Positions 9,401 to 33,520 of a stretch of DNA of 33,864 bases are shown piece by piece. The notes under the pieces were generated by a model. That model saw nothing but the letters and a program-made list of their open reading frames with translations. It was not told the origin of the DNA and did not search any database. The number at the start of each line of letters is the position of its first letter. Position 1 is the first letter of the stretch. The stretch comes from Candidatus Hydrogenedentota bacterium. Its GTDB lineage: Bacteria; Hydrogenedentota; Hydrogenedentia; Hydrogenedentales; CAITNO01. The stretch lies in contig JAKOTZ010000127.1 in assembly GCA_029776995.1 (NCBI GenBank), positions 1 to 33,864 of the forward strand, written 5' to 3'. Made by a program: the position numbers and the translations under genes.

Positions 9401-10402
9401 CTAGAGATTGTAATCTTCGAGGGAAATACGCAGCACGTATACCGGAATATCCGTTTCAGGCGGATGAAAATCCAGGCGGGCCGCATCCTTTTCCGTGATG
9501 ATGATTGGACGCGTTCCCTGAAAGAGATGCCGGTGAAAGACCGCGTGATCGCGCAACGCCTGAGACCGGCACAGAACCACGCCGAGGCGTTCGAGCAGTT
9601 CGAAGAAACCGCGGCTGTCGCCAATCGCGCACAGGGCGTCCGCTTCGACGCCGCGCAAGGCATCGATCGGCAACATGGCCCCGTCCCGCAGCCGTTCAAA
9701 ACCTTCCGGCGCGTGCCGGGTCAGCCGAACCGGCCGTCCTGGACACAACGCGGCGATGGTGTCCAGCAAAGCAGGGAGTTCCGCGCAACGATCGGCATGG
9801 GTAATGAGGACATGGGTGGCCCGGGCCGCGGCGGACGGGTATTCGCGAAGGATCCCCCGCGGAATAAGCGAACCGTTTCCGAAAGGATTCGCCGCGTTGA
9901 CTACCAGAATATTTTCATCCCGATCCAGGGAAACCGCCTGAAATCCGTCGTCCAGAATCAGGCAATCGCACCCCCGCTCTATTGCGGCTTTCGCGCCGGC
10001 CACGCGGTCTCGGCAGCGCACTATGGTAAGCCCGGGCAGACGCCGCGCCATCAGGGCGGCCTCATCGCCCAGCTCGCGCCAGTGAATGGGTTTTTCTGAT
10101 GTCCAGATGAAAGGTTCCCGGACGCGCGGCGCGCCGTACCCGCGGGTAAGCACCGCCACGCGGGCCCCCGCGGCAAGTTCCGCCGCGGCCCGCTCGAGCA
10201 CAGCGGGCGTCTTTCCGGTTCCGCCGGCGGTGAGATTACCGAAACTGATCACCCGGGCGGGCACACGGACGCGCGGCGCAGCCAGACGCCGGCTCATGCC
10301 CCACGCCTGAAAGGGTGTGGCAGTTCCCAGCAACAGGTCCAGCCAGGCGGGCGCACGCCCTCCGCGGCTGATTTCGTCCATCCAATGCCGCAACGGTCCC
10401 AT
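9401..10402 (-). CDS. lpxK: Tetraacyldisaccharide 4'-kinase
   Basis: VISFGNLTAGGTGKTPAVLE (LpxK Walker A), LTRGYGAPRVREP, LILDDGFQ. Confidence 0.93.
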   Translation of the reverse strand: MGPLRHWMDEISRGGRAPAWLDLLLGTATPFQAWGMSRRLAAPRVRVPARVISFGNLTAGGTGKTPAVLERAAAELAAGARVAVLTRGYGAPRVREPFIWTSEKPIHWRELGDEAALMARRLPGLTIVRCRDRVAGAKAAIERGCDCLILDDGFQAVSLDRDENILVVNAANPFGNGSLIPRGILREYPSAAARATHVLITHADRCAELPALLDTIAALCPGRPVRLTRHAPEGFERLRDGAMLPIDALRGVEADALCAIGDSRGFFELLERLGVVLCRSQALRDHAVFHRHLFQGTRPIIITEKDAARLDFHPPETDIPVYVLRISLEDYNL

Positions 10403-13040: not shown

Positions 13041-14285
13041 TCAGGCCGTGTGAAAGATGCCGCCAAGCCTGGCAATGATATCCGCGGGATCTCCCGCGGT
13101 AAGATCCTCAGCCAGGAAGGCCTGTTTGGTGGTCCGCAGCGTAACCACCAGCGTAGGCGGAGCGCCTGGGCGGGGCTGGTCTTCCACGAACATGTATCCG
13201 TCAAAGTGGATCTGGTCCACCCTGCCGACCTCATCTCCGGCGAAGAGTTCATACATGACACGCAGGACGGTATCGCACAGCGCGGTGGTGTATACCGCGG
13301 CGCGCTGTTCCTCCGTGAGCAGCCGCTCATGGAACGTATTGGTCTGTGGGTCATAATCGACGGCGTAAAGCCACGGAAATGTCCGCAGGGGCGGCAACAG
13401 ATACTCGACCTGGATACCCCGGTCCAACTCGTAATAATCCATATCGTAGGAATGCGGAAAGAATTCGGGCAGGCGGGCGTGGGTCAACAGGAGATCGCAG
13501 TAATCCAGCACGGCATAGGGCTCACCCAGCATGTAGGCTTTGCGTTTGGCATCAATGATGGGCTTGCACTGCTCGCGCTCGGTAAGATAACGCTTTCTGG
13601 CCTGTTCCCAAAGGGCAAGCGCCTGTTCATGCTGGGCCTTGAGCGCGCGGACCACCTGCTGGTGACGCTGCAGTTCAGCCTGGTGATGCTGCATGATCCG
13701 CTTGCAGACCTCTTCCCACTGTTTATGGGCCGCTTCGTAGCGGGCCAGCGCCTCCGCTTCTTTTTCTTCGCGCCTGGACCGCACCAGCTTATCCATGGCG
13801 TCCAATTTTGGAATAAAGACTTCGTCCGTGCGCAGGGGTTCCCGTGGAATCCTGGGCATTTCCGGCGGGGGGGGAAATTCCGGAGGATCCGGCTGGGGGA
13901 CCGTGTAGTCGGGATACTCTTTGACTTTTTCCCAATCCAGCCTGGGCGTAGTTTTTACGGCTTCGGACAGGATGCCCGCGATTTCTCTGAGCTCATCCTG
14001 AGCCAGGGCGGTCCGGGCTTCAGCAATTTTAATTTTCTGGGCGGGCTTGAGATCGGGCCTTTTGGCGTTCATTTCCAACCCAAGCCGTTTCCGTTTGACC
14101 TCATTGCGGTGGTCCTGAATGCCCTGCCAGATTTTTTCGACGAGCGCGGCTTTGTGGATTACCAGGAGGGGCATATCACTGAAAACCACCCGCTGTTTAC
14201 CCAGCGAGGGATAGCGAACCGGCATACGGTATAACTGCAGTCCGGATCCGCTCTGGTAACTTTCGAGATCCTGTTCGTCGTACAT
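13041..14285 (-). CDS. Uncharacterised protein: coiled-coil/Pro-rich N-terminal part plus a conserved C-terminal domain of a type often seen in restriction-system-like proteins
   Basis: Long charged helix (RSRREEKEAEALARYEAAHKQWEEVCKRIMQHHQAELQRHQQ...) then PEFFPHSYDMDYYELDRGIQVEYLLPPL...YTTALCDTVLRVMYELFAGDEVGRVDQIHFDGYM...LVVTLRTTKQAFLAEDL. Start set at ATG 14285; a TTG at 14303 is possible. Confidence 0.6.
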   Translation of the reverse strand: MYDEQDLESYQSGSGLQLYRMPVRYPSLGKQRVVFSDMPLLVIHKAALVEKIWQGIQDHRNEVKRKRLGLEMNAKRPDLKPAQKIKIAEARTALAQDELREIAGILSEAVKTTPRLDWEKVKEYPDYTVPQPDPPEFPPPPEMPRIPREPLRTDEVFIPKLDAMDKLVRSRREEKEAEALARYEAAHKQWEEVCKRIMQHHQAELQRHQQVVRALKAQHEQALALWEQARKRYLTEREQCKPIIDAKRKAYMLGEPYAVLDYCDLLLTHARLPEFFPHSYDMDYYELDRGIQVEYLLPPLRTFPWLYAVDYDPQTNTFHERLLTEEQRAAVYTTALCDTVLRVMYELFAGDEVGRVDQIHFDGYMFVEDQPRPGAPPTLVVTLRTTKQAFLAEDLTAGDPADIIARLGGIFHTA

Positions 14286-14353
14286 CAGGCTTCCCGCCGG
14301 CAACTTTTTGCTTAATGAAAGATTTTACACTATACGGTACATTATGTCCAGTA

Positions 14354-18057: not shown

Positions 18058-19050
18058 TCAGGCGAGGGGCCAGTCCTGCTCTACCCAGGTCCGGATCTGC
18101 TGAACCTCATCATCATCCAGGATCAGATCCCCCGCCGCGGCATTTTCGATGACCTGGCTTTCGGACCGGGCACCTGCCAGGGCGGTAGTCATGCCCGGCT
18201 GCGCGACCAGCCAGGCGAGAAAGACCTGTCCCAGGGTAGCCCCATGGCGTTCCGCAATGGGGCGTGTCTTTTCGAGCAGGTCCCAGACCTTAACACGGTT
18301 TTCCCTGCTGAACAGGGGTTTGGTCCGGCGCAGATCGCCTTCCGGAAACTCGCGGTCCGGCGTAACTTTTCCGGTCAGCAACCCCTGCGCAATGGGGCTG
18401 TACGCCAAAATTCCGATCTGATGCTCCCGGCAGAAGGGCAGGACATCTTTCTCAATCTTCCTGACCAGGGCGCTGTATTCCGGCTGGTCCGAAACGATCT
18501 CGCCATGCCGCAGGCATTCTTCCATCATGGCAGGCGTGAAATTGCTGACGCCGGCATACCGGATTTTGCCTTCTTTTTTCAGGTCCATCAGCGCGCCCAT
18601 GGTATCGGCCAGGGGCGTGGTGGAGTCCGGCCAGTGGCACTGATACAGGTCGATGCAATCCACGCCCAGGCGGCGCAGGCTCTGTTCACATTCCCACCGG
18701 ATGGATTCCGGGCGGAGATTTTTGTAAATGGCCCTCGGGTTCCCGTCATTGTCCCGGGTATCGAAGAATTTTTCACCCTCAGCCAGGTCCCAGCGGAGTC
18801 CACATTTGGTGGCAATAATAACTTTGTCGCGCCTGTCCGCGATGGCCCTGCCGACCACCCGCTCACTGTGCCCCATACCGTAAATGGGCGCCGTATCAAT
18901 AAGCGTCATCCCGTGGTCAACCGCGGCATGGATGGCCCGAACGGCCTCGTCGTCCTGCGTTCCCCCCCACAGCCAGCCGCCGATCGCCCATGCCCCGAAA
19001 GAAATCACCGGAACATTCAGGTCACTGGTACCCAATTGACGAAATTTCAT
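18058..19050 (-). CDS. Aldo/keto reductase
   Basis: MKFRQLGTSDLNVPVISFGAWAIGGWLWGG; LIDTAPIYGMGHSERVVGRA; IDLYQCHWPDSTTPLADTMGALMDLKKEGKIRYAGVSNF. Confidence 0.93.
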   Translation of the reverse strand: MKFRQLGTSDLNVPVISFGAWAIGGWLWGGTQDDEAVRAIHAAVDHGMTLIDTAPIYGMGHSERVVGRAIADRRDKVIIATKCGLRWDLAEGEKFFDTRDNDGNPRAIYKNLRPESIRWECEQSLRRLGVDCIDLYQCHWPDSTTPLADTMGALMDLKKEGKIRYAGVSNFTPAMMEECLRHGEIVSDQPEYSALVRKIEKDVLPFCREHQIGILAYSPIAQGLLTGKVTPDREFPEGDLRRTKPLFSRENRVKVWDLLEKTRPIAERHGATLGQVFLAWLVAQPGMTTALAGARSESQVIENAAAGDLILDDDEVQQIRTWVEQDWPLA

Positions 19051-19089
19051 AGCGTGCCTCCTGTATGTTGTTACCCGGCGGATATGCTG

Positions 19090-21216
19090 TTACTGTTCCG
19101 GCTGGGCCGATTCAGCGGATTCCCCCGCCTTGACCGGCACCTTCAGCCTGGACCCGAGCTTAACCAGATTTTTATCCTGGATATTGTTAATCCGCATCAG
19201 TTCCGCCTGACTGATGCCATAACGGGCGGAGATCCGCCCCAACGTATCACCGGGCTGCACCACATAAATTTCATAGGCTGTTTCATCAGCAGCTGAAACA
19301 GAAACGGTTGGATCCGGGGATTTTATTTCTTGCTGCCCCTCAGCCGCAGGCGTGGATTCCGGGACAGCCGGCGCCGCGTCCGAGCCGGGGGCAGGATTGG
19401 CGCCTTCGTCCACGGCAGGCGCCGATGGGGCGGCCTGATTCGCGTCCGCGGCATCATCTGCCTGACGGTATATTCTGAGCACGGTCCCCGCGACAATACG
19501 GTTCGCATCCGTAATCCCGTTCCACGCTTTCAGGTCAGCCAGCGGGACCCCGTATTTTTGGGCGATGGTGGAAAGTCCCTCCCCCGGTTCTATACGGTGC
19601 TCAATGAATGGCGTATCCGGAGGCGGTAAGACGGCGGAAGACTCCGCCGAAGCTCCCTGTGCTTCGGAGACAGACTCCCCTGCCTGGGAAACAGGAGCCG
19701 TCTCCGTACCGCCCTCCTGTCCTGCTTCGGACGCAACGGCCTGATCGGCCTGCGCTTCCGGCGACGGCGGAGCAGCAGGTTCTTCCGTCTTTTCCGACAC
19801 ATCATGCGCGGGGCTGCCTGTATCCGTCCGCGGTGAAGGTTCTGACTCCGTCTCGGAGTCGGCATCTGCTCCTGAAACCGGCTTTTCCGGGGCAGGGGCG
19901 GTCGAAACGGTATCTGTGGTGATCCCCCCCGTCGTTTCAGCCTCTCCCGGCTCTGCAGCCTGGGGAGCATGCTCCGGAACAGACGGGACGGTTTGACTGC
20001 CATGATCCGAATCCGGCCTGCCGGGAGTTTCTGAAGAAGCGGGTTCGGCTTTTTCCGGAGCAGCCGCCGCCCGCCCGGCGTAGCGTTGCCGGAAACGTTC
20101 GAGCCGCTCCGCGCTCTGCCGCAGCTGCTCGGCCGGCAGCCCGGCGAGGTTGAAGGACATCAGCACCCCCACGGCCGTATCCTGACGGTCGAAATCAACC
20201 AGCGCGGCGTCACATCCGGCCGCCAGGCAGCGAACGGCGAGCGATGAAATGTCTTCCTCTCCGGCAATTTCAACCGGATCCAAAGCATCCCCCAGGATCA
20301 GCCCGTCATACTGCCATTTCTGGCGCAACAAGTCCCGGACAATGACGGGAGAGGCACAGGCGGGCCGGGGCGGCTTTCTGGCATCAAGGGCAGGCACCGC
20401 AATCTGTCCGACCACCAACGCCGGAGATCCCGCCTGTATGGCCTGAAGAAACGGTTCCACGGACCGCGCCAGGAGATCAAAATCGCTTTCCGTGATCAGA
20501 GGTAATCCTTCCGGCGAATAGCTGTCCGGAGCGCCGGGAAACGACCATGCCGCGACGGCCATACCATTTTCAAGCAGGAACCGGTTCAGGTTCAACCCCA
20601 CCTGAACGGCATCCGCCGGCGGCATAGAAATGCCGAAAAAGTCCACTGCCTGAGACACGGATCCGCCTTTGGGGGAAGCATAGGCCAGACAGGGACCGAA
20701 CCAGCCTGAAACTTCCCACTGCCGAAGGGTTTCGAGAAGTCCCGCGGCAAGCAGTTCTGTTGCCGCCTGCCCCTCCCGGGAATCCGGAACTGACAGCATC
20801 CCCTTTTCCCCCGCCGTATCCAACAGCACCGCGGGAGCATTTCGCAAGCCATTCAGCACGGCAATGGCTTCCCGCATTATTCTTGGGTCTCCGCCGCCAT
20901 CAGCGCGCAGCACTACGACAGCCGGGCGCAGCTCAACAATAACGTCCCGCCAGAGATACCGAAACGTATCCGGACGTAACACCGGAATAATGTGTCGTCC
21001 CTGTTCCCCTTCGATGTTCTGGAGGGTAGTGGATGCATTGAGGGGGTTCTCCGGAAACTGCCGGACTTCAGCAACAGGCGCCGTTCCCTGTTCACGGGCG
21101 CCGAACAGCGCCATGAACAGGTACATGATGCCCATGCCCAATGCGAACCCGAGAATAAACGTCATAACCAGCGATACAGAACCGCCGTATGATTTTCTGC
21201 GCCGATAATACGCCAT
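19090..21216 (-). CDS. Membrane-anchored GH3/NagZ-like domain, low-complexity linker, two LysM domains
   Basis: N-terminal TM (SLVMTFILGFALGMGIMYLFMALF); GH3-like core with VEPFLQAIQAGSPALVVGQIAVPALDARKPPRPACASPVIVRDLLRQKWQYDGLILGDALDP; Pro/Glu/Ala/Ser-rich linker; LysM copies HRIEPGEGLSTIAQKYGVPLADLKAWNGI and YVVQPGDTLGRISARYGISQAELMRINNI. ATG at 21216. Confidence 0.8.
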   Translation of the reverse strand: MAYYRRRKSYGGSVSLVMTFILGFALGMGIMYLFMALFGAREQGTAPVAEVRQFPENPLNASTTLQNIEGEQGRHIIPVLRPDTFRYLWRDVIVELRPAVVVLRADGGGDPRIMREAIAVLNGLRNAPAVLLDTAGEKGMLSVPDSREGQAATELLAAGLLETLRQWEVSGWFGPCLAYASPKGGSVSQAVDFFGISMPPADAVQVGLNLNRFLLENGMAVAAWSFPGAPDSYSPEGLPLITESDFDLLARSVEPFLQAIQAGSPALVVGQIAVPALDARKPPRPACASPVIVRDLLRQKWQYDGLILGDALDPVEIAGEEDISSLAVRCLAAGCDAALVDFDRQDTAVGVLMSFNLAGLPAEQLRQSAERLERFRQRYAGRAAAAPEKAEPASSETPGRPDSDHGSQTVPSVPEHAPQAAEPGEAETTGGITTDTVSTAPAPEKPVSGADADSETESEPSPRTDTGSPAHDVSEKTEEPAAPPSPEAQADQAVASEAGQEGGTETAPVSQAGESVSEAQGASAESSAVLPPPDTPFIEHRIEPGEGLSTIAQKYGVPLADLKAWNGITDANRIVAGTVLRIYRQADDAADANQAAPSAPAVDEGANPAPGSDAAPAVPESTPAAEGQQEIKSPDPTVSVSAADETAYEIYVVQPGDTLGRISARYGISQAELMRINNIQDKNLVKLGSRLKVPVKAGESAESAQPEQ
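19611..20076 (-). other. Low-complexity Ala/Glu/Ser/Pro-rich linker inside the LysM protein
   Basis: Translation EKAEPASSETPGRPDSDHGSQTVPSVPEHAPQAAEPGEAETTGG...GASAESSAVLPPPD, compositionally biased between the GH3-like core and the first LysM. Boundaries approximate. Confidence 0.75.
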
Positions 21217-21268
21217 GAGACACCTTTTCGTACGGAAGGAGTGAAGTTTGCACATTATTATTGCACTT

Positions 21269-21330: not shown

Positions 21331-21558
21331 ATGAAGCCGCGTATATTGTGGCGGGTGTTGGCGGTGTGTGTGATCCTGAGTGTGGTTACGCTGTGGTGGG
21401 CTCCCGCAGCCTCAGCACAGTCAGCAGACCAGAAACTGGCCACCCAGTCCGGGCTGGGATCAAAACAGCTCGACAAAGATAAACTCCCCGGGAAACTTGA
21501 GTTCGGCATCACCGCGGCGTCCGTGATCGGAGCAATCGCCGCAATCAAGTACTTGTAA
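21331..21558 (+). CDS. Small secreted or membrane-associated protein, unknown function
   Basis: MKPRILWRVLAVCVILSVVTLWWAPAASAQSADQKLATQSGLGSKQLDKDKLPGKLEFGITAASVIGAIAAIKYL: signal peptide with ASA-Q cleavage-like site and hydrophobic C-terminus; GAAAGGA precedes the ATG. An in-frame ATG at 21316 also exists. Confidence 0.6.
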   Translation: MKPRILWRVLAVCVILSVVTLWWAPAASAQSADQKLATQSGLGSKQLDKDKLPGKLEFGITAASVIGAIAAIKYL

Positions 21559-21585: not shown

Positions 21586-22953
21586 GTGACCCATCATCCC
21601 AGGCACAAAGGGGGTAAAAGTACGCGGGTCCAGGATGTTGGCTCCGTTCCGCGGGTGTTGATTGCCGACGCCGACCCCAATACGCAGTCCGTAACGAAGA
21701 TTTATTTTGAAGACGAGGGGATGGCCGTTACGTTTGTGTCAAGCTTCAGGGAAGCCCAGGAGGAACTGTCCGGGAAGGAATACGACCTCGCGCTGATAGA
21801 TCTTGCCCTGCCCGGGGGCACCGCGCTGGAACTGCTGGAATGGATCCGAGACCAGGGGTTAACCACGGCTGCCGTGGTGCTTGCCGCATCGATGGACGTG
21901 CAGGAGGCGCTCGCGGCGCTGCACCTGGGGGCGTATGATTTTCTGCTGAAGCCGTTCCACCTCAGCCAACTGGCGTTCGCCGCCCAAAAAGCCCTGGAAC
22001 GCCGTCGTTTACTGCTGGAAAACCTCTCCTATCAGCGGGACCTGGAACGCCGTGTGGAAGAAGCAACCGCCGACCTGCGCAAGGCGAATGAAGCGCTGTA
22101 CGACACCAAAGAATACCTGGAACGCCTCCTGGACAGTTCGACCGACGCAATTTTCACCGTTGACCGGGAGTTCAACATCTCCTACACCAACCGGGGCGCC
22201 AAAGCCATGCTGGGGGATCCGGGGAACCAGCTTGAAGGCATGCCGGTCTCCGCAATCCTGGCCCGGGGCGAAAGCGAAGTCCTGGAACTGCAGGAAGACC
22301 TTCAGGTCGGGCCGGTATATTCCCATGAATCCGTGCTTCGCGCGCTGGACGGACGCCTGATCTCGGTTATCGCGTCGTGTTCCTATGTTCGGGACCAGTC
22401 GGGCAACATCCGCTCGGTCGTGGTGCTGTGCAAAGACATCACCCGCCAGAAACAACTGGAAGAAGAACTGAAAGAGCTGTCCATCAAGGATGGCCTGACC
22501 GGGCTCTACAACCACCGGTATTTCCACGAGAAACTTCGGGAAGAGCTTGAGCGCGCCCGGCGGCAGCGCCGCCCGCTGTCCATGCTGATATTTGACGTGG
22601 ACCACTTTAAGCAATATAACGACACCCACGGGCACCTGGAAGGCGACAAGGTACTGAGAACCATTGGAGAGGTGATCCGGGAACACACCCGGGGCTACGT
22701 GGACACCTGTTTCCGGTACGGCGGGGATGAGTTTGTTGTACTGCTGCCAGACACCGATGAAAGTCAGGCCGAAGGCGTCGCGGAACGGATCCGCCTCGCG
22801 TTTGAAGAAAAGAAGTTCGGCGACTGCACGCTCAGCGTGGGGGTGATGGAATACCGCGACGAGATATCCCCGGAAAGCTTTTTCGCAAAAGCCGACCAGA
22901 TCATGTATGATGCCAAACGCGCGGGGGGAAACCGGGTATACTCGGTCCGGTAA
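21586..22953 (+). CDS. Receiver-PAS-GGDEF diguanylate cyclase-like regulator
   Basis: REC (RVLIADADPNTQ...DLALIDLALPGG...GAYDFLLKPF), PAS (LLDSSTDAIFTVDREFNISYTNRGAKAMLG), GGDEF (DGLTGLYNHRYF...FDVDHFKQYNDTHGH...FRYGGDEFVVLLP). GTG start is uncertain. Confidence 0.92.
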   Translation: MTHHPRHKGGKSTRVQDVGSVPRVLIADADPNTQSVTKIYFEDEGMAVTFVSSFREAQEELSGKEYDLALIDLALPGGTALELLEWIRDQGLTTAAVVLAASMDVQEALAALHLGAYDFLLKPFHLSQLAFAAQKALERRRLLLENLSYQRDLERRVEEATADLRKANEALYDTKEYLERLLDSSTDAIFTVDREFNISYTNRGAKAMLGDPGNQLEGMPVSAILARGESEVLELQEDLQVGPVYSHESVLRALDGRLISVIASCSYVRDQSGNIRSVVVLCKDITRQKQLEEELKELSIKDGLTGLYNHRYFHEKLREELERARRQRRPLSMLIFDVDHFKQYNDTHGHLEGDKVLRTIGEVIREHTRGYVDTCFRYGGDEFVVLLPDTDESQAEGVAERIRLAFEEKKFGDCTLSVGVMEYRDEISPESFFAKADQIMYDAKRAGGNRVYSVR

Positions 22954-29251: not shown

Positions 29252-32200
29252 TCAGTCCGTGTCGGTATAACTGAACCAGATGGGGCCGTATATGCCCGTA
29301 ATCCGGATGGATCCGTAGTTGTAATCCAGATAAAATTCGCCGGAGTATTCCCCTGGCTCCGTCTGCGCGCGGTCGGCCTGAACGGTGAATGTGCCGGGGA
29401 CTTCCGTAAGGCCGGAGACCTGCTCGATTACAGGCTCATAAACAAAAGCGCCTACTCCGGTTCCGGACAAAGACATCGGTCCCTGGCGAACCGTCCAGTA
29501 CAGCTGCACGTCCGTCGGGAGATGGGATCCGCCCTTATTGAAGACGTTCATCGTAACCGGCTCCGTAACTGTGTCCAGGTCGATCACGCTGTTCTCCACA
29601 TCCGTGAACAGGTCTGGGGCCAGCGTAACCATGGGCCGTGGCAGCGACGGCGCGCGGAAGGGCGACTCAACAACCCGAATGGTATCGGGGTAGGTGAAGT
29701 ATTTTCCGTCCGGAGAACCATCGTAAACGGGGGCGTCCACCGAAAGCCGCACCAGGAACGGAGCGGTTGCGCCCGTTACCGTAATATTGAACAGGGAGCC
29801 CCAGTCCCCATACTGCAGGGTACGCCCCGCCGGGGCCGTCATGGTAAACGGCGCGCCCACGACCGGCGTGCCGGTCCATTCAGCAAACAATCCGCCTTCT
29901 GTTGATGGAGCCGGCGCAATAGCCACCGTAGCACCCGGCGCATCTTCAACATTGATGGTAAAGGTCATCTGGGTGATATTTCTGGGCGCGTAATCCATAT
30001 AAACCGTCACGGTCGTCGCTCCGCCGCTGACCAGGCCGTCCGACTTCATGCCAATCTGGCCCAGCTTAACGTCATCCGCATAGGCTTCGTAAGGCACATC
30101 ATTAATTTCGATGAAGCCCGAAACCGGAGGCGTACGGTCGGTAACCGTCATTGTCAATCCCATTTTCGCCGTTGTGGATTCGTTCAGGGATACGTACTGA
30201 AGCGTCACGTGGGAACGCAGATCCTTGGGTATGGAGGAGGCGTTCTCAGGGTCACCCGGATCGGTGCGGCACCATTTGAGCAGTTCGCTCAACAACGGAG
30301 TTTTTGATCCGTCGCTGTTGCGCCTGACATCTGTGGCGTAATAATGGCCGCCTATACCCGCAGAGATCCGCACCAGCGAATTGGCCAGGATGTCATTGCC
30401 CCACCCCACGGCGAATACCCGCGTCCTCGTGGATTCCAGGAAATCACGCACCGGTCCCAGTTCGCCCGGCGGCGTAGTGCGGCGTCCGTCACTGACCAGA
30501 ATCAGGATGCTTTCATCGCCGCTGTCGAAGGGGATATAGTGCCTTCCCCGATCCACGCTGTACAGCGTAACCGCGCCGGCAAGCACAGCCGGTAACAGCT
30601 CCGTAGCTCCATTATCCTGAACATCCAGCTGCTGCAGACGGTACTGTAATACGGTTTTGTCCTGTACAAACGCTTCGGAAACCATCCAGGAAGCGGGATC
30701 AGGCGCGCCATAAATCAGCCGCAGCGGTGTCTGGTAGTAAGGACTGCGTTCATTAAAGATGCCAAGCGCCACTTTGCACTGCTGCGGCAGTTCATCAATC
30801 AGTTCGGCCACGCACTGCTGATACAGCGCGGTCAGGGCGTCCACCCCAGGCGGCGGGGTCAGCTGTCCATCCGCCACCAACGCCTCGGCGGCCGCTCTCA
30901 TACTGCCGGAAAAGTCCAGCATGATGAGCACGTTAAAGCTCAGCCGTTCATCTTTTTTGACAAACACGCTGGTTTCAGAGGTTTCGAGCGGCTGATTGTC
31001 TTCGGTAATCAGAGGCTCCAGATTAACCGCCGGATACAGGATCCGGGGATCCACCGGATCATCCTCCAGGAAAGAGAACGGGCGGAACGCGCTGTCCCTC
31101 AGGAGCAGGTTTGCCCTCAGAAGAGACGGCGGCCGAAGCATAGGCAGGGCCGTTTCAATAGTAAGGTCCGCCACATCCACGGATATTTCAATTTCAACCG
31201 GGGTAACCGGGAGGGCATCCGGCGGCACATCCACTGCCCGGACGATCAACTTGCCGACTGCGCCGGTGGAAGAGATGCGCGACCTGTCAATAGAGACGTC
31301 CAGCTGCCGCCAGTCCGGAACAATTCCCGCCGGCACGCCTATACTTTGCCCGAAACGGGGCTCCACAAACAACCATTCGGGCCGGGTGGATTCCACCTCG
31401 AAATATAGTGTTTCACCGGGATCACCCAGATTGGCCACCTCCACGACAGCCGTATTGTCATACCGTCCCATGGCCAGGCGGGATGGACGGGTACCGATAA
31501 TCAGCCTGAAAGGAACCCGTACCTGCACTTCCAAAATCACCTGGGGCCGCAGCGGATCGTTGGACTCCAGCACCAGATTGTACGTTGCGCCTTCGCGGCC
31601 CAGGGTGGAGCGGTCGACAGTAACCGTCACCGACTGTTGGCGTCCGGCGCGCACCTGACCCTGCTGAGGATTAATGGAAGTGATCCAGGAGGGAATCTGC
31701 TGGTCCTGCGCCACCCGCCAGGTCAGGTCACCCTCTCCGCTGTTCACGATGGTGAAAGACTGCTGATCCTCTCCGATGGCCAGATTTATGAAGGGCGTTC
31801 CGGATCCGTCCTGGCCCTCGCCGACCACCTCAAAAACCGGATATTTGGGGACACTTCCGGCAACCGTCACCTGGACAGATCCCGTAAAATCGCCGGATGC
31901 GTTTACAGTAAAGGTATGGCTGAAATTGGTCTGCCCGGCAGTCACCAGAGCACGGTCTACCCGAAGTTCAAAAGTCTGAGTCGCCGCACCAGAAAGGGAT
32001 CCAGAGGTAGGCCCGACCAGCGTAAGCCATGCCGGGAACGCGGAAGTATCAATATTCCAGTTCACCGTCCCGATGCCGTCATTCCACACGGCCACGGTTT
32101 CCCCTGAACGGACATCGCCCAGGTTAATATCGGTAGGCGCCACGCGCAACGCCGCGGGCCGCGGCCTGCTGAAGGCAACGCTGACCGTGTCAAACCCATT

Positions 32201-33457
32201 GTCCGCGCTGATCCGGAGTTCCGCTGAATAAGTTCCCGGATCCACCTGAGCGGGATCAACAGAAACCGTAAGGTCCTGAGATGCCCCGCCCGCCAGGGTC
32301 CCTGAAGCAGGCGAAAAAGATAACCACTGTGATCCGGACACATTCTGAGCGCTCCAGCCCACCGCGGAGGTTCCCAGGTTGGTCAGTGTGACCACGCCCT
32401 GGGTTACGCCGGTAATCTCACCCAAATCCAGGGTTGTCGGCGCCACCTCAAACCGGGAATAGGTCAGGGTAACCGGAACCTCCTGGAACAGCTCGCCGCC
32501 GGGCACAGAAACCGTTACCGTTCCGGAATATGCTCCCGGTACCAGGGAAGCGATATTTGCCGTTACATTCACCAGCCCAGTGCTGGAGGCCGCCACGGTA
32601 ACGCTGGCCTGGCTCACCGTCAGCCAGCTTCCGCCATCCGCGGTCTGAGCGGCCACGTTGAATGTAACCGGCTCCGCGCTCTGGTTGACCAGGCTCAGCG
32701 AGCGGGTCGTGTTCTGTCGGACTCTCCCGAAATCAATGGAAGTTGGCGCCACGCGGAGGTAGGGTACCCGCACAGAGACATTTACCAGGGCATTTCCACC
32801 GTTAGATGAAATGCCCAGCACGGCCGTATACGGATCCGGCCTGCCCGTAACCGCATTTCGGTCGACCTGGACGGTTACCGCGCTTTGCCCGCCAAATACC
32901 GGAATGGTTCCGGTGGCAGGCGTAACCGAAAGCCAGGGCGCCGTGGCCGGAACCGCAATCTGCCATTCCAGCGGGGCATTTCCCTGATTGGTCAGGGTCA
33001 GAACCTGCTCCACCAGGTTTTGCCCGAAATCAATGGAATCCGCGGAAACTTCAAGCAGCGGCGCATATTCCCGCGTAACCGCCACCTTAACTGTCTTATC
33101 CCCTCCGTTGGAAGTGATCAGAATCTCGCCTTTTGGTGTCGGCGTGTTGGGTAACTGTTCCGAAACGATATCCACCTGCAGAAAATACGGGCTGGAGGCT
33201 GTCGCGGTACCGTTAAGGCTGGAAGCCTTTTCCGCCGGTACGGTTTTTTGCGAAAGCTGAATCCAGGGCGTCTGCGTTTCAGCGGAAAAACGCAGTGTCC
33301 CACCACCCGTGTTTTCAATCCGAAGCACCGTTCCCGTGACACTCTGGTCCAGAGCGATGGATCCAGGCGTTACGCTGAGCACAGGAGTCAACGCCGGACA
33401 TCCTGTCAAGAACAGCCCTGTCAGGGAAGCCAGCAACATCAACCATATTCTGGGCAT
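29252..33457 (-). CDS. Large lipoprotein with tandem BACON/choice-of-anchor-like beta repeats and a VWA domain
   Basis: Signal MPRIWLMLLASLTGLFLTGC (lipobox); about seven roughly 100-aa repeats (LLEVSADSIDFGQ..., YLRVAPTSIDFGR..., RFEVAPTTLDLGE..., ALRVAPTDINLGD...); VWA NVLIMLDFSGSM...ILILVSDGRRTTPPG. ATG 33457; 33481 is also in frame. Confidence 0.85.
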   Translation of the reverse strand: MPRIWLMLLASLTGLFLTGCPALTPVLSVTPGSIALDQSVTGTVLRIENTGGGTLRFSAETQTPWIQLSQKTVPAEKASSLNGTATASSPYFLQVDIVSEQLPNTPTPKGEILITSNGGDKTVKVAVTREYAPLLEVSADSIDFGQNLVEQVLTLTNQGNAPLEWQIAVPATAPWLSVTPATGTIPVFGGQSAVTVQVDRNAVTGRPDPYTAVLGISSNGGNALVNVSVRVPYLRVAPTSIDFGRVRQNTTRSLSLVNQSAEPVTFNVAAQTADGGSWLTVSQASVTVAASSTGLVNVTANIASLVPGAYSGTVTVSVPGGELFQEVPVTLTYSRFEVAPTTLDLGEITGVTQGVVTLTNLGTSAVGWSAQNVSGSQWLSFSPASGTLAGGASQDLTVSVDPAQVDPGTYSAELRISADNGFDTVSVAFSRPRPAALRVAPTDINLGDVRSGETVAVWNDGIGTVNWNIDTSAFPAWLTLVGPTSGSLSGAATQTFELRVDRALVTAGQTNFSHTFTVNASGDFTGSVQVTVAGSVPKYPVFEVVGEGQDGSGTPFINLAIGEDQQSFTIVNSGEGDLTWRVAQDQQIPSWITSINPQQGQVRAGRQQSVTVTVDRSTLGREGATYNLVLESNDPLRPQVILEVQVRVPFRLIIGTRPSRLAMGRYDNTAVVEVANLGDPGETLYFEVESTRPEWLFVEPRFGQSIGVPAGIVPDWRQLDVSIDRSRISSTGAVGKLIVRAVDVPPDALPVTPVEIEISVDVADLTIETALPMLRPPSLLRANLLLRDSAFRPFSFLEDDPVDPRILYPAVNLEPLITEDNQPLETSETSVFVKKDERLSFNVLIMLDFSGSMRAAAEALVADGQLTPPPGVDALTALYQQCVAELIDELPQQCKVALGIFNERSPYYQTPLRLIYGAPDPASWMVSEAFVQDKTVLQYRLQQLDVQDNGATELLPAVLAGAVTLYSVDRGRHYIPFDSGDESILILVSDGRRTTPPGELGPVRDFLESTRTRVFAVGWGNDILANSLVRISAGIGGHYYATDVRRNSDGSKTPLLSELLKWCRTDPGDPENASSIPKDLRSHVTLQYVSLNESTTAKMGLTMTVTDRTPPVSGFIEINDVPYEAYADDVKLGQIGMKSDGLVSGGATTVTVYMDYAPRNITQMTFTINVEDAPGATVAIAPAPSTEGGLFAEWTGTPVVGAPFTMTAPAGRTLQYGDWGSLFNITVTGATAPFLVRLSVDAPVYDGSPDGKYFTYPDTIRVVESPFRAPSLPRPMVTLAPDLFTDVENSVIDLDTVTEPVTMNVFNKGGSHLPTDVQLYWTVRQGPMSLSGTGVGAFVYEPVIEQVSGLTEVPGTFTVQADRAQTEPGEYSGEFYLDYNYGSIRITGIYGPIWFSYTDTD
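31180..33420 (-). repeat. Coding tandem repeat of about seven BACON-like beta-sandwich units
   Basis: Recurring protein motif [V/L]xVxPxSIxFGxV...LTNxGxxPLxWxxxxxxxWLxVxPxxGxL...VxVDxxxxxxGxYxAxLxIxSxxG at about 300 bp spacing. Boundaries approximate. Confidence 0.75.
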
Positions 33458-33520
33458 ATGAGTAACCCCGTTTTCAGTCATCGAGCCGGCAAGTCATAAC
33501 CGACCCTGAAGACGCTACCT

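Follow-up and report, generated by a model that had tools for sequence, protein, structure and literature searches.

The window analyzed in this study is a stretch of 33,864 nucleotides from a genome of Candidatus Hydrogenedentota, in which the GH3-LysM gene occupies positions 19090 to 21216 on the reverse strand. Its product of 708 amino acids contains a GH3 domain and two LysM domains according to Pfam. The underlying frame is longer and open throughout (19090-21255, reverse strand, 721 codons, corresponding to 721 amino acids). The internal ATG at 21216 (MAYYRR) was taken as the start because homology to the sister species begins there, and the coordinates 19090-21216 of the first-pass annotation were thus right. 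An assembly error or a pseudogene was ruled out, as the frame is open in two species and dN is well below a dS that is, however, saturated.

The protein starts with a basic stretch followed by a hydrophobic helix with a GxxxG motif (FILGFALGMGIMYLFMALF, 21103-21159, reverse strand), which was located by a hydrophobicity scan and bears out the membrane tether of the first-pass annotation. The helix is predicted to be a signal anchor with the body of the protein outside; the cytoplasmic N-terminus comprises only about 19 residues and lacks a signaling domain. The helix is followed by a catalytically degenerate GH3 barrel of the NagZ type (about 20077-21033, reverse strand; Pfam, AlphaFold2, and Foldseek), a fast-evolving linker rich in Pro, Ala, and Glu (19600-20076, reverse strand; 29.5% identity to the sister species), and the LysM domains 1 (19471-19599) and 2 (19135-19266), both on the reverse strand and separated by a second linker. 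Both LysM domains pass the PF01476 cut-off (94 bits), so that the fusion to two such domains was confirmed by the HMM check. No LytM/M23 domain was matched by Pfam in this protein.

The gene heads a run of ten genes that extends from 21216 down to LpxK at 9401 with gaps of less than 60 nt. While this run, noted before, does exist in the window, other genera keep only the link to the next gene, which encodes an aldo/keto reductase (AKR; 18058-19050, reverse strand; PF00248 and synteny), and a conserved operon was ruled out on these grounds. In the families f1 and f11, the AKR and GH3-LysM genes share a strand and are either adjacent or separated by a single gene (window 18058-21216, reverse strand; L034, L040, L041, L046, L049, L051, and L052).

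Predicted fold and catalytic site

The AlphaFold2 model of residues 55-405 reached a mean pLDDT of 83.8 and a pTM of 0.85. The best solved structural matches found by Foldseek were the GH3 beta-N-acetylglucosaminidases 3tev, 6k5j, Amuc_2109, and YbbD/NagZ, with a probability of 1.00 and a TM of about 0.7 for a predicted model, not a solved structure. A PDB sequence search concurs with these matches. In Pfam, PF00933 was matched at 20098-20577 with 61.8 bits (cut-off 27), spanning only profile positions 157-314 of 316, that is, the second half, because the first half has diverged. The barrel is predicted to retain the TIM-barrel fold of GH3 beta-N-acetylglucosaminidases, and both the Pfam score and the Foldseek matches uphold the GH3/NagZ fold first read from the sequence.

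The nucleophile of GH3 enzymes is the first Asp of the SDD motif. The corresponding position in the window protein is Asp323 (20287-20289, reverse strand), as established from alignment and coordinates. The surrounding LGDALDP (20275-20295) had been described as an altered SDD region. This is correct for the flanking Ser and the second Asp, which are changed, but not for the nucleophile itself, which is intact; because of its retention, the altered specificity considered in the first-pass annotation is conceivable.

The NagZ loop reads KH(F/I)PG(H/L)GxxxxD(S/T)H, with the final Asp and His as acid/base dyad (PMC5615308), and the conservation of this dyad in NagZ-type enzymes is also given elsewhere (PMC6572805). 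The location of the acid/base varies among GH3 proteins, and an Asn-x-His variant of the loop occurs in an active enzyme (PMC5615308). As reference for the catalytic columns, 22 canonical NagZs from other phyla were used, all of them invariant at these sites and all (22/22) with the dyad. In the alignment, the former acid/base loop of the window protein (20506-20547, reverse strand) has the sequence WSFPGAPDSYSPEG in place of KHFPGHGxxxxDSH. The first-pass reading of WSFPGAP (20527-20547) where NagZ has KHFPGHG is exact: Trp and Ser replace Lys and His, and Ala and Pro replace the second His and Gly. The catalytic His, however, had been placed inside KHFPGHG, whereas the dyad is the Asp-x-His that ends the loop (PMC5615308). 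This is lost as well, as PEG stands in place of DSH. That a dyad had been overlooked through misalignment was ruled out when the 22 residues following PG were searched for the motif. The loss of catalytic residues, and with it the pseudoenzyme as leading reading, stands, although the decisive loss is that of the downstream dyad. Judged from these replacements, it is well supported that the barrel has lost glycosidase activity of the ordinary kind.

The Arg of the RSF motif is replaced by Asp, so that in the window protein Trp, Ser, and Asp occupy the positions of the substrate-binding Lys, His, and Arg. Binding of muropeptides in the dead pocket, as proposed before, is disfavored by these exchanges for this genus; it appears more plausible in many other genera, because Lys, His, and Arg are kept there. 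Even the sister species does not share WSFPGAP, as its loop reads WPFPGVA, and the sequence was ruled out as a functional motif.

Distribution and catalytic state across the phylum

Sixty-eight genomes of the phylum, all from one order, were examined. A match to the family profile was found in 67 of them, which is an upper bound, as the profile also picks up other GH3s. Copies were sorted individually, fragments included, in the 59 genomes with GH3 hits. The GH3-LysM family, designated F1, was present in 55 of these, a second family, F2, in 56, and both in 52; such proportions for F1 and F2 are based on genomes and genes as units and do not give numbers of independent events. Of the order's 11 family codes, 10 contain orthologues of F1. 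The branch of the window genus is very long (3.04). The gene order, however, with AKR on one side and GGDEF, TIM-barrel, PNPOx, and HisG genes on the other, is the same in genomes G002 and G007, which speaks for the orthology of the window gene to F1.

The dyad is absent from 50 of 52 near-complete F1 GH3 domains (about 95%; 49 if Asn-x-His counts as active), in agreement with an independent motif search; a degeneration limited to the window genome was ruled out by this phylum-wide pattern. Dyad and nucleophile are intact in two members (L013 and L082), and a third (L023) carries Asn-x-His. The nucleophile Asp is retained in 41 of the 52 domains and lost in 11. Ranked by variability, the acid/base His column lies at the 87th percentile of F1 and the nucleophile column at the 16th. 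The barrel is present in every F1 member, over 10 family codes, with invariant columns, of which the polar ones are either common to canonical NagZs or outside the loop. LysM was matched in 51 of 52 proteins scanned (49 F1 proteins and three intact sister copies), and GxxxG was found in 51 of 54 orthologous transmembrane helices, compared to 16.3 expected from shuffling each helix.

The retained nucleophile raises the question of a still-active enzyme with altered chemistry. Asp323 would form the glycosyl-enzyme, while the part of the His would be taken by a different residue or by phosphate or a sugar hydroxyl as external acceptor, resulting in a slow glycosidase, phosphorylase, or transglycosylase acting on wall glycans held by LysM. 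The low variability of the nucleophile column, with Asp in 41 of 52 domains, is in line with this, as are the variable place of the acid/base in GH3 and the activity elsewhere of the Asn-x-His variant found in L023 (PMC5615308). On the other hand, 11 of 52 domains lack the nucleophile as well, the window genus has lost the substrate-binding Lys, His, and Arg, and the family columns show no Asp, Glu, or His that is conserved in dyad-less members only and could substitute for the dyad. Even with the persistence of the recycling genes AnmK and MurQ in its favor, we consider such an enzyme unlikely.

Within F1, both Lys and His are kept by 18 dyad-less orthologues, and the RSF Arg is present in 28 of all 52 domains. 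These residues would suit the muropeptide sensor of the first-pass annotation, in which the dead pocket binds GlcNAc-MurNAc fragments and the transmembrane helix relays its occupancy, and a divergently transcribed GGDEF response regulator is its neighbor in the window as well as in G002, G005, and G007. Nevertheless, the binding residues are replaced in the window genus, the loop differs between its two species, and the cytoplasmic N-terminus is short and without a signaling domain, which makes a sensor rather improbable.

In a tree calculated without the catalytic columns, F1 grouped with an intact GH3-LysM clade (L078, L079, and L081) with a support of 100, and F1 without this clade had a support of 82. 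On this tree, the catalytic state has to change 12 times or more. Given the intact sister clade and the two intact members, loss within F1 from an active, LysM-bearing ancestor would be the simplest reading. In G003, G011, and G006 (L078, L079, and L081), the genome encodes a degenerate GH3-LysM protein in addition to the intact GH3-LysM enzyme, which makes the two a natural pair. LysM was found by Pfam in 0 of 6 GH3 matches from other phyla, taken from 35 matches of one scan with one peptide pattern, which was built from a 7-row subset of the 26-row family alignment. Among the open-access papers searched for GH3 pseudoenzymes or for NagZ with LysM, no prior report of such a protein was found.

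Like F1, family F2 is phylum-wide and has a catalytically degenerate GH3 barrel, which hhalign matched to that of F1 at 99.9%. In contrast to F1, LysM is absent in the members scanned, and the architecture is GH3 plus a GH3_C-like domain, often with PKD (L053-L072, e.g., L059:655-2730 and L064:400-2508, both on the reverse strand). Dyad and nucleophile are missing in all 53 of 53 near-complete members, and both FPGG and a Gly-Pro at the nucleophile site are invariant. As these replacements are invariant, they suggest a selected, non-catalytic role of F2. The window genome contains F2 only as a fragment at a contig edge (C243:6-242, L002).

Selection within the genus

Selection was compared for the two congeneric species; Gw_SlDig_bin_152 was the only genome of the genus examined besides that of the window. 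For the barrel, dN was 0.31 and dS 1.75, which is near saturation and leaves the ratios rough. The dN values were 0.12 for the transmembrane region, 0.12-0.16 for the LysM domains, 0.70-0.76 for the linkers, and 0.07-0.10 for the neighbors AKR and PurE. Purifying selection is strongest in the transmembrane region and the LysM domains and weaker in the barrel. By these substitution rates, the barrel is under constraint, although weaker than that on the neighboring genes, with the ratios rough at a dS near saturation.

The transmembrane region and LysM are the best conserved parts within the genus, which would also fit a plain tether from the inner membrane to the wall, for which nothing but these parts matters and the barrel would be a spacer in decay. 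The relaxed catalytic columns and the very long branch of the window genus point in the same direction. Against this stand the occurrence of the barrel in every member across 10 family codes with invariant columns and, within the genus, a barrel dN far lower than the (saturated) dS; we regard a mere tether as quite unlikely.

Peptidoglycan recycling genes

A dyad-intact NagZ-type GH3 was found in only 9 of 59 genomes and was not seen in 50; the window genome is a draft (97.3% complete), and an intact NagZ could sit in its unassembled part. G018 may be a tenth genome with an intact copy (L153, a fragment). The recycling kinase AnmK is present in 39 of 40 genomes, and strong MurQ matches were obtained in 23 of 25. 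Since AnmK and MurQ are kept without an intact NagZ in most genomes, some NagZ-like activity must exist somewhere: either the NagZ step comes from another glycosidase, or some of the degenerate GH3s are still active. GH1 or GH20 may fill this step. The GH20 of the window genome has the GCDE motif and looks intact.

AnmK clusters with a fusion of a BadF-type kinase and MurQ in L218 (G007), L219 (G014), and L220 (G002). SpoIID lies beside the AnmK/MurQ cluster in G014 and G002, and GH1 beside MurQ in G007 and G014.

Proposed role

The GH3-LysM protein is probably a membrane-anchored, wall-binding scaffold or regulator rather than an enzyme. This reading is based on the loss of the dyad in 50 of 52 domains with the predicted fold kept and the transmembrane helix, GH3, and LysM kept together, and on purifying selection that is strongest in the transmembrane region and LysM and weaker in the barrel. 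A precedent is provided by inactive LytM factors, which regulate wall amidases, and of which NlpD also has LysM (PMC8416486). F1 would consist of single-pass envelope proteins derived from a NagZ-type GH3 beta-N-acetylglucosaminidase with C-terminal LysM, the acid/base loop of which has, by sequence, decayed in most lineages, including the window genus. The N-terminal helix would anchor the protein in the inner membrane with its body in the periplasm, and pairing, either between copies of the protein or with a partner, is probably mediated by the GxxxG motif. From what is typical of the LysM family, the LysM domains on their long flexible linkers would bind glycan strands of peptidoglycan. The barrel most likely docks, positions, or regulates peptidoglycan enzymes, by analogy with degenerate LytM domains; the two Amidase_3 proteins encoded in the window genome are possible candidate partners.

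For the specific proposal of a bitopic pseudoenzyme that serves wall enzymes as scaffold or regulator in the manner of NlpD and EnvC, we see an about even chance. A pure scaffold needs no nucleophile, and its retention in 41 of 52 domains and in the window protein argues against one. So do the preservation of AnmK and MurQ without a dyad-intact NagZ in 50 of 59 genomes and the recurring neighbor, which is an aldo/keto reductase and not a wall enzyme. More tentatively, and with somewhat less than an even chance, the NagZ-type GH3s of the phylum became two conserved, non-catalytic envelope proteins, the membrane-anchored LysM scaffold F1 and the secreted PKD protein F2 with an invariant Gly-Pro at the nucleophile, while the recycling genes remain and the NagZ step falls to GH20 or GH1. 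If true, the conversion of F1 and F2 would parallel, on the basis of GH3, the degenerate LytM regulators.

The window protein shares with NagZ, YbbD, and LpqI (PF00933) the barrel fold, the position of the nucleophile Asp, the FPG base of the loop, and position-specific A/S/R/GCD structural residues; LpqI is an envelope protein, too, namely a lipoprotein (PMC6572805). It differs from NagZ-type enzymes by the missing Asp-His dyad and KH pair and by its transmembrane anchor, two LysM domains, and long linkers. The sister clade L078, L079, and L081 of the same phylum likewise combines a NagZ-type GH3 with C-terminal LysM, but has the full KHFPGHGxxxxDSH and TDD, one LysM domain, and a short linker. 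NlpD and EnvC are also envelope proteins with an inactive wall-hydrolase domain, with LysM in NlpD (PMC8416486). Their domain is LytM/M23 instead of a GH3 barrel, without common ancestry, and NlpD is an outer-membrane lipoprotein. On this comparison of domains, the GH3-LysM protein is not a degenerate LytM factor, and the likeness is an analogy only.

A routine annotation of GH3 as beta-N-acetylglucosaminidase would be wrong for most copies in Hydrogenedentota, and recycling models built on it would hide the gap of AnmK and MurQ without a recognizable NagZ. With fold and nucleophile kept and the acid/base lost, F1 forms, together with its intact members and the sister clade, a natural series for the change from wall hydrolase to regulator, and hints at a wall scaffold of a new type that is open to testing.

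Other genes in the window

A response regulator-PAS-GGDEF gene (21586-22953, forward strand) is oriented divergently from the GH3-LysM gene, an arrangement kept in G002, G005, and G007 (L034, L039, and L052). The small frame between the two (about 21331-21558, forward strand) seems to encode a signal peptide and a short protein for secretion. A frame of 420 amino acids between ThiD and a HEAT-repeat protein (13041-14303, reverse strand) has no Pfam match. Elsewhere in the window genome, a frame of 732 amino acids with five LysM domains was found (G000:C198:40222-41253). A protein of 1409 amino acids (29252-33481, reverse strand) contains repeated BACON/HYDIN-like Ig domains according to Pfam.
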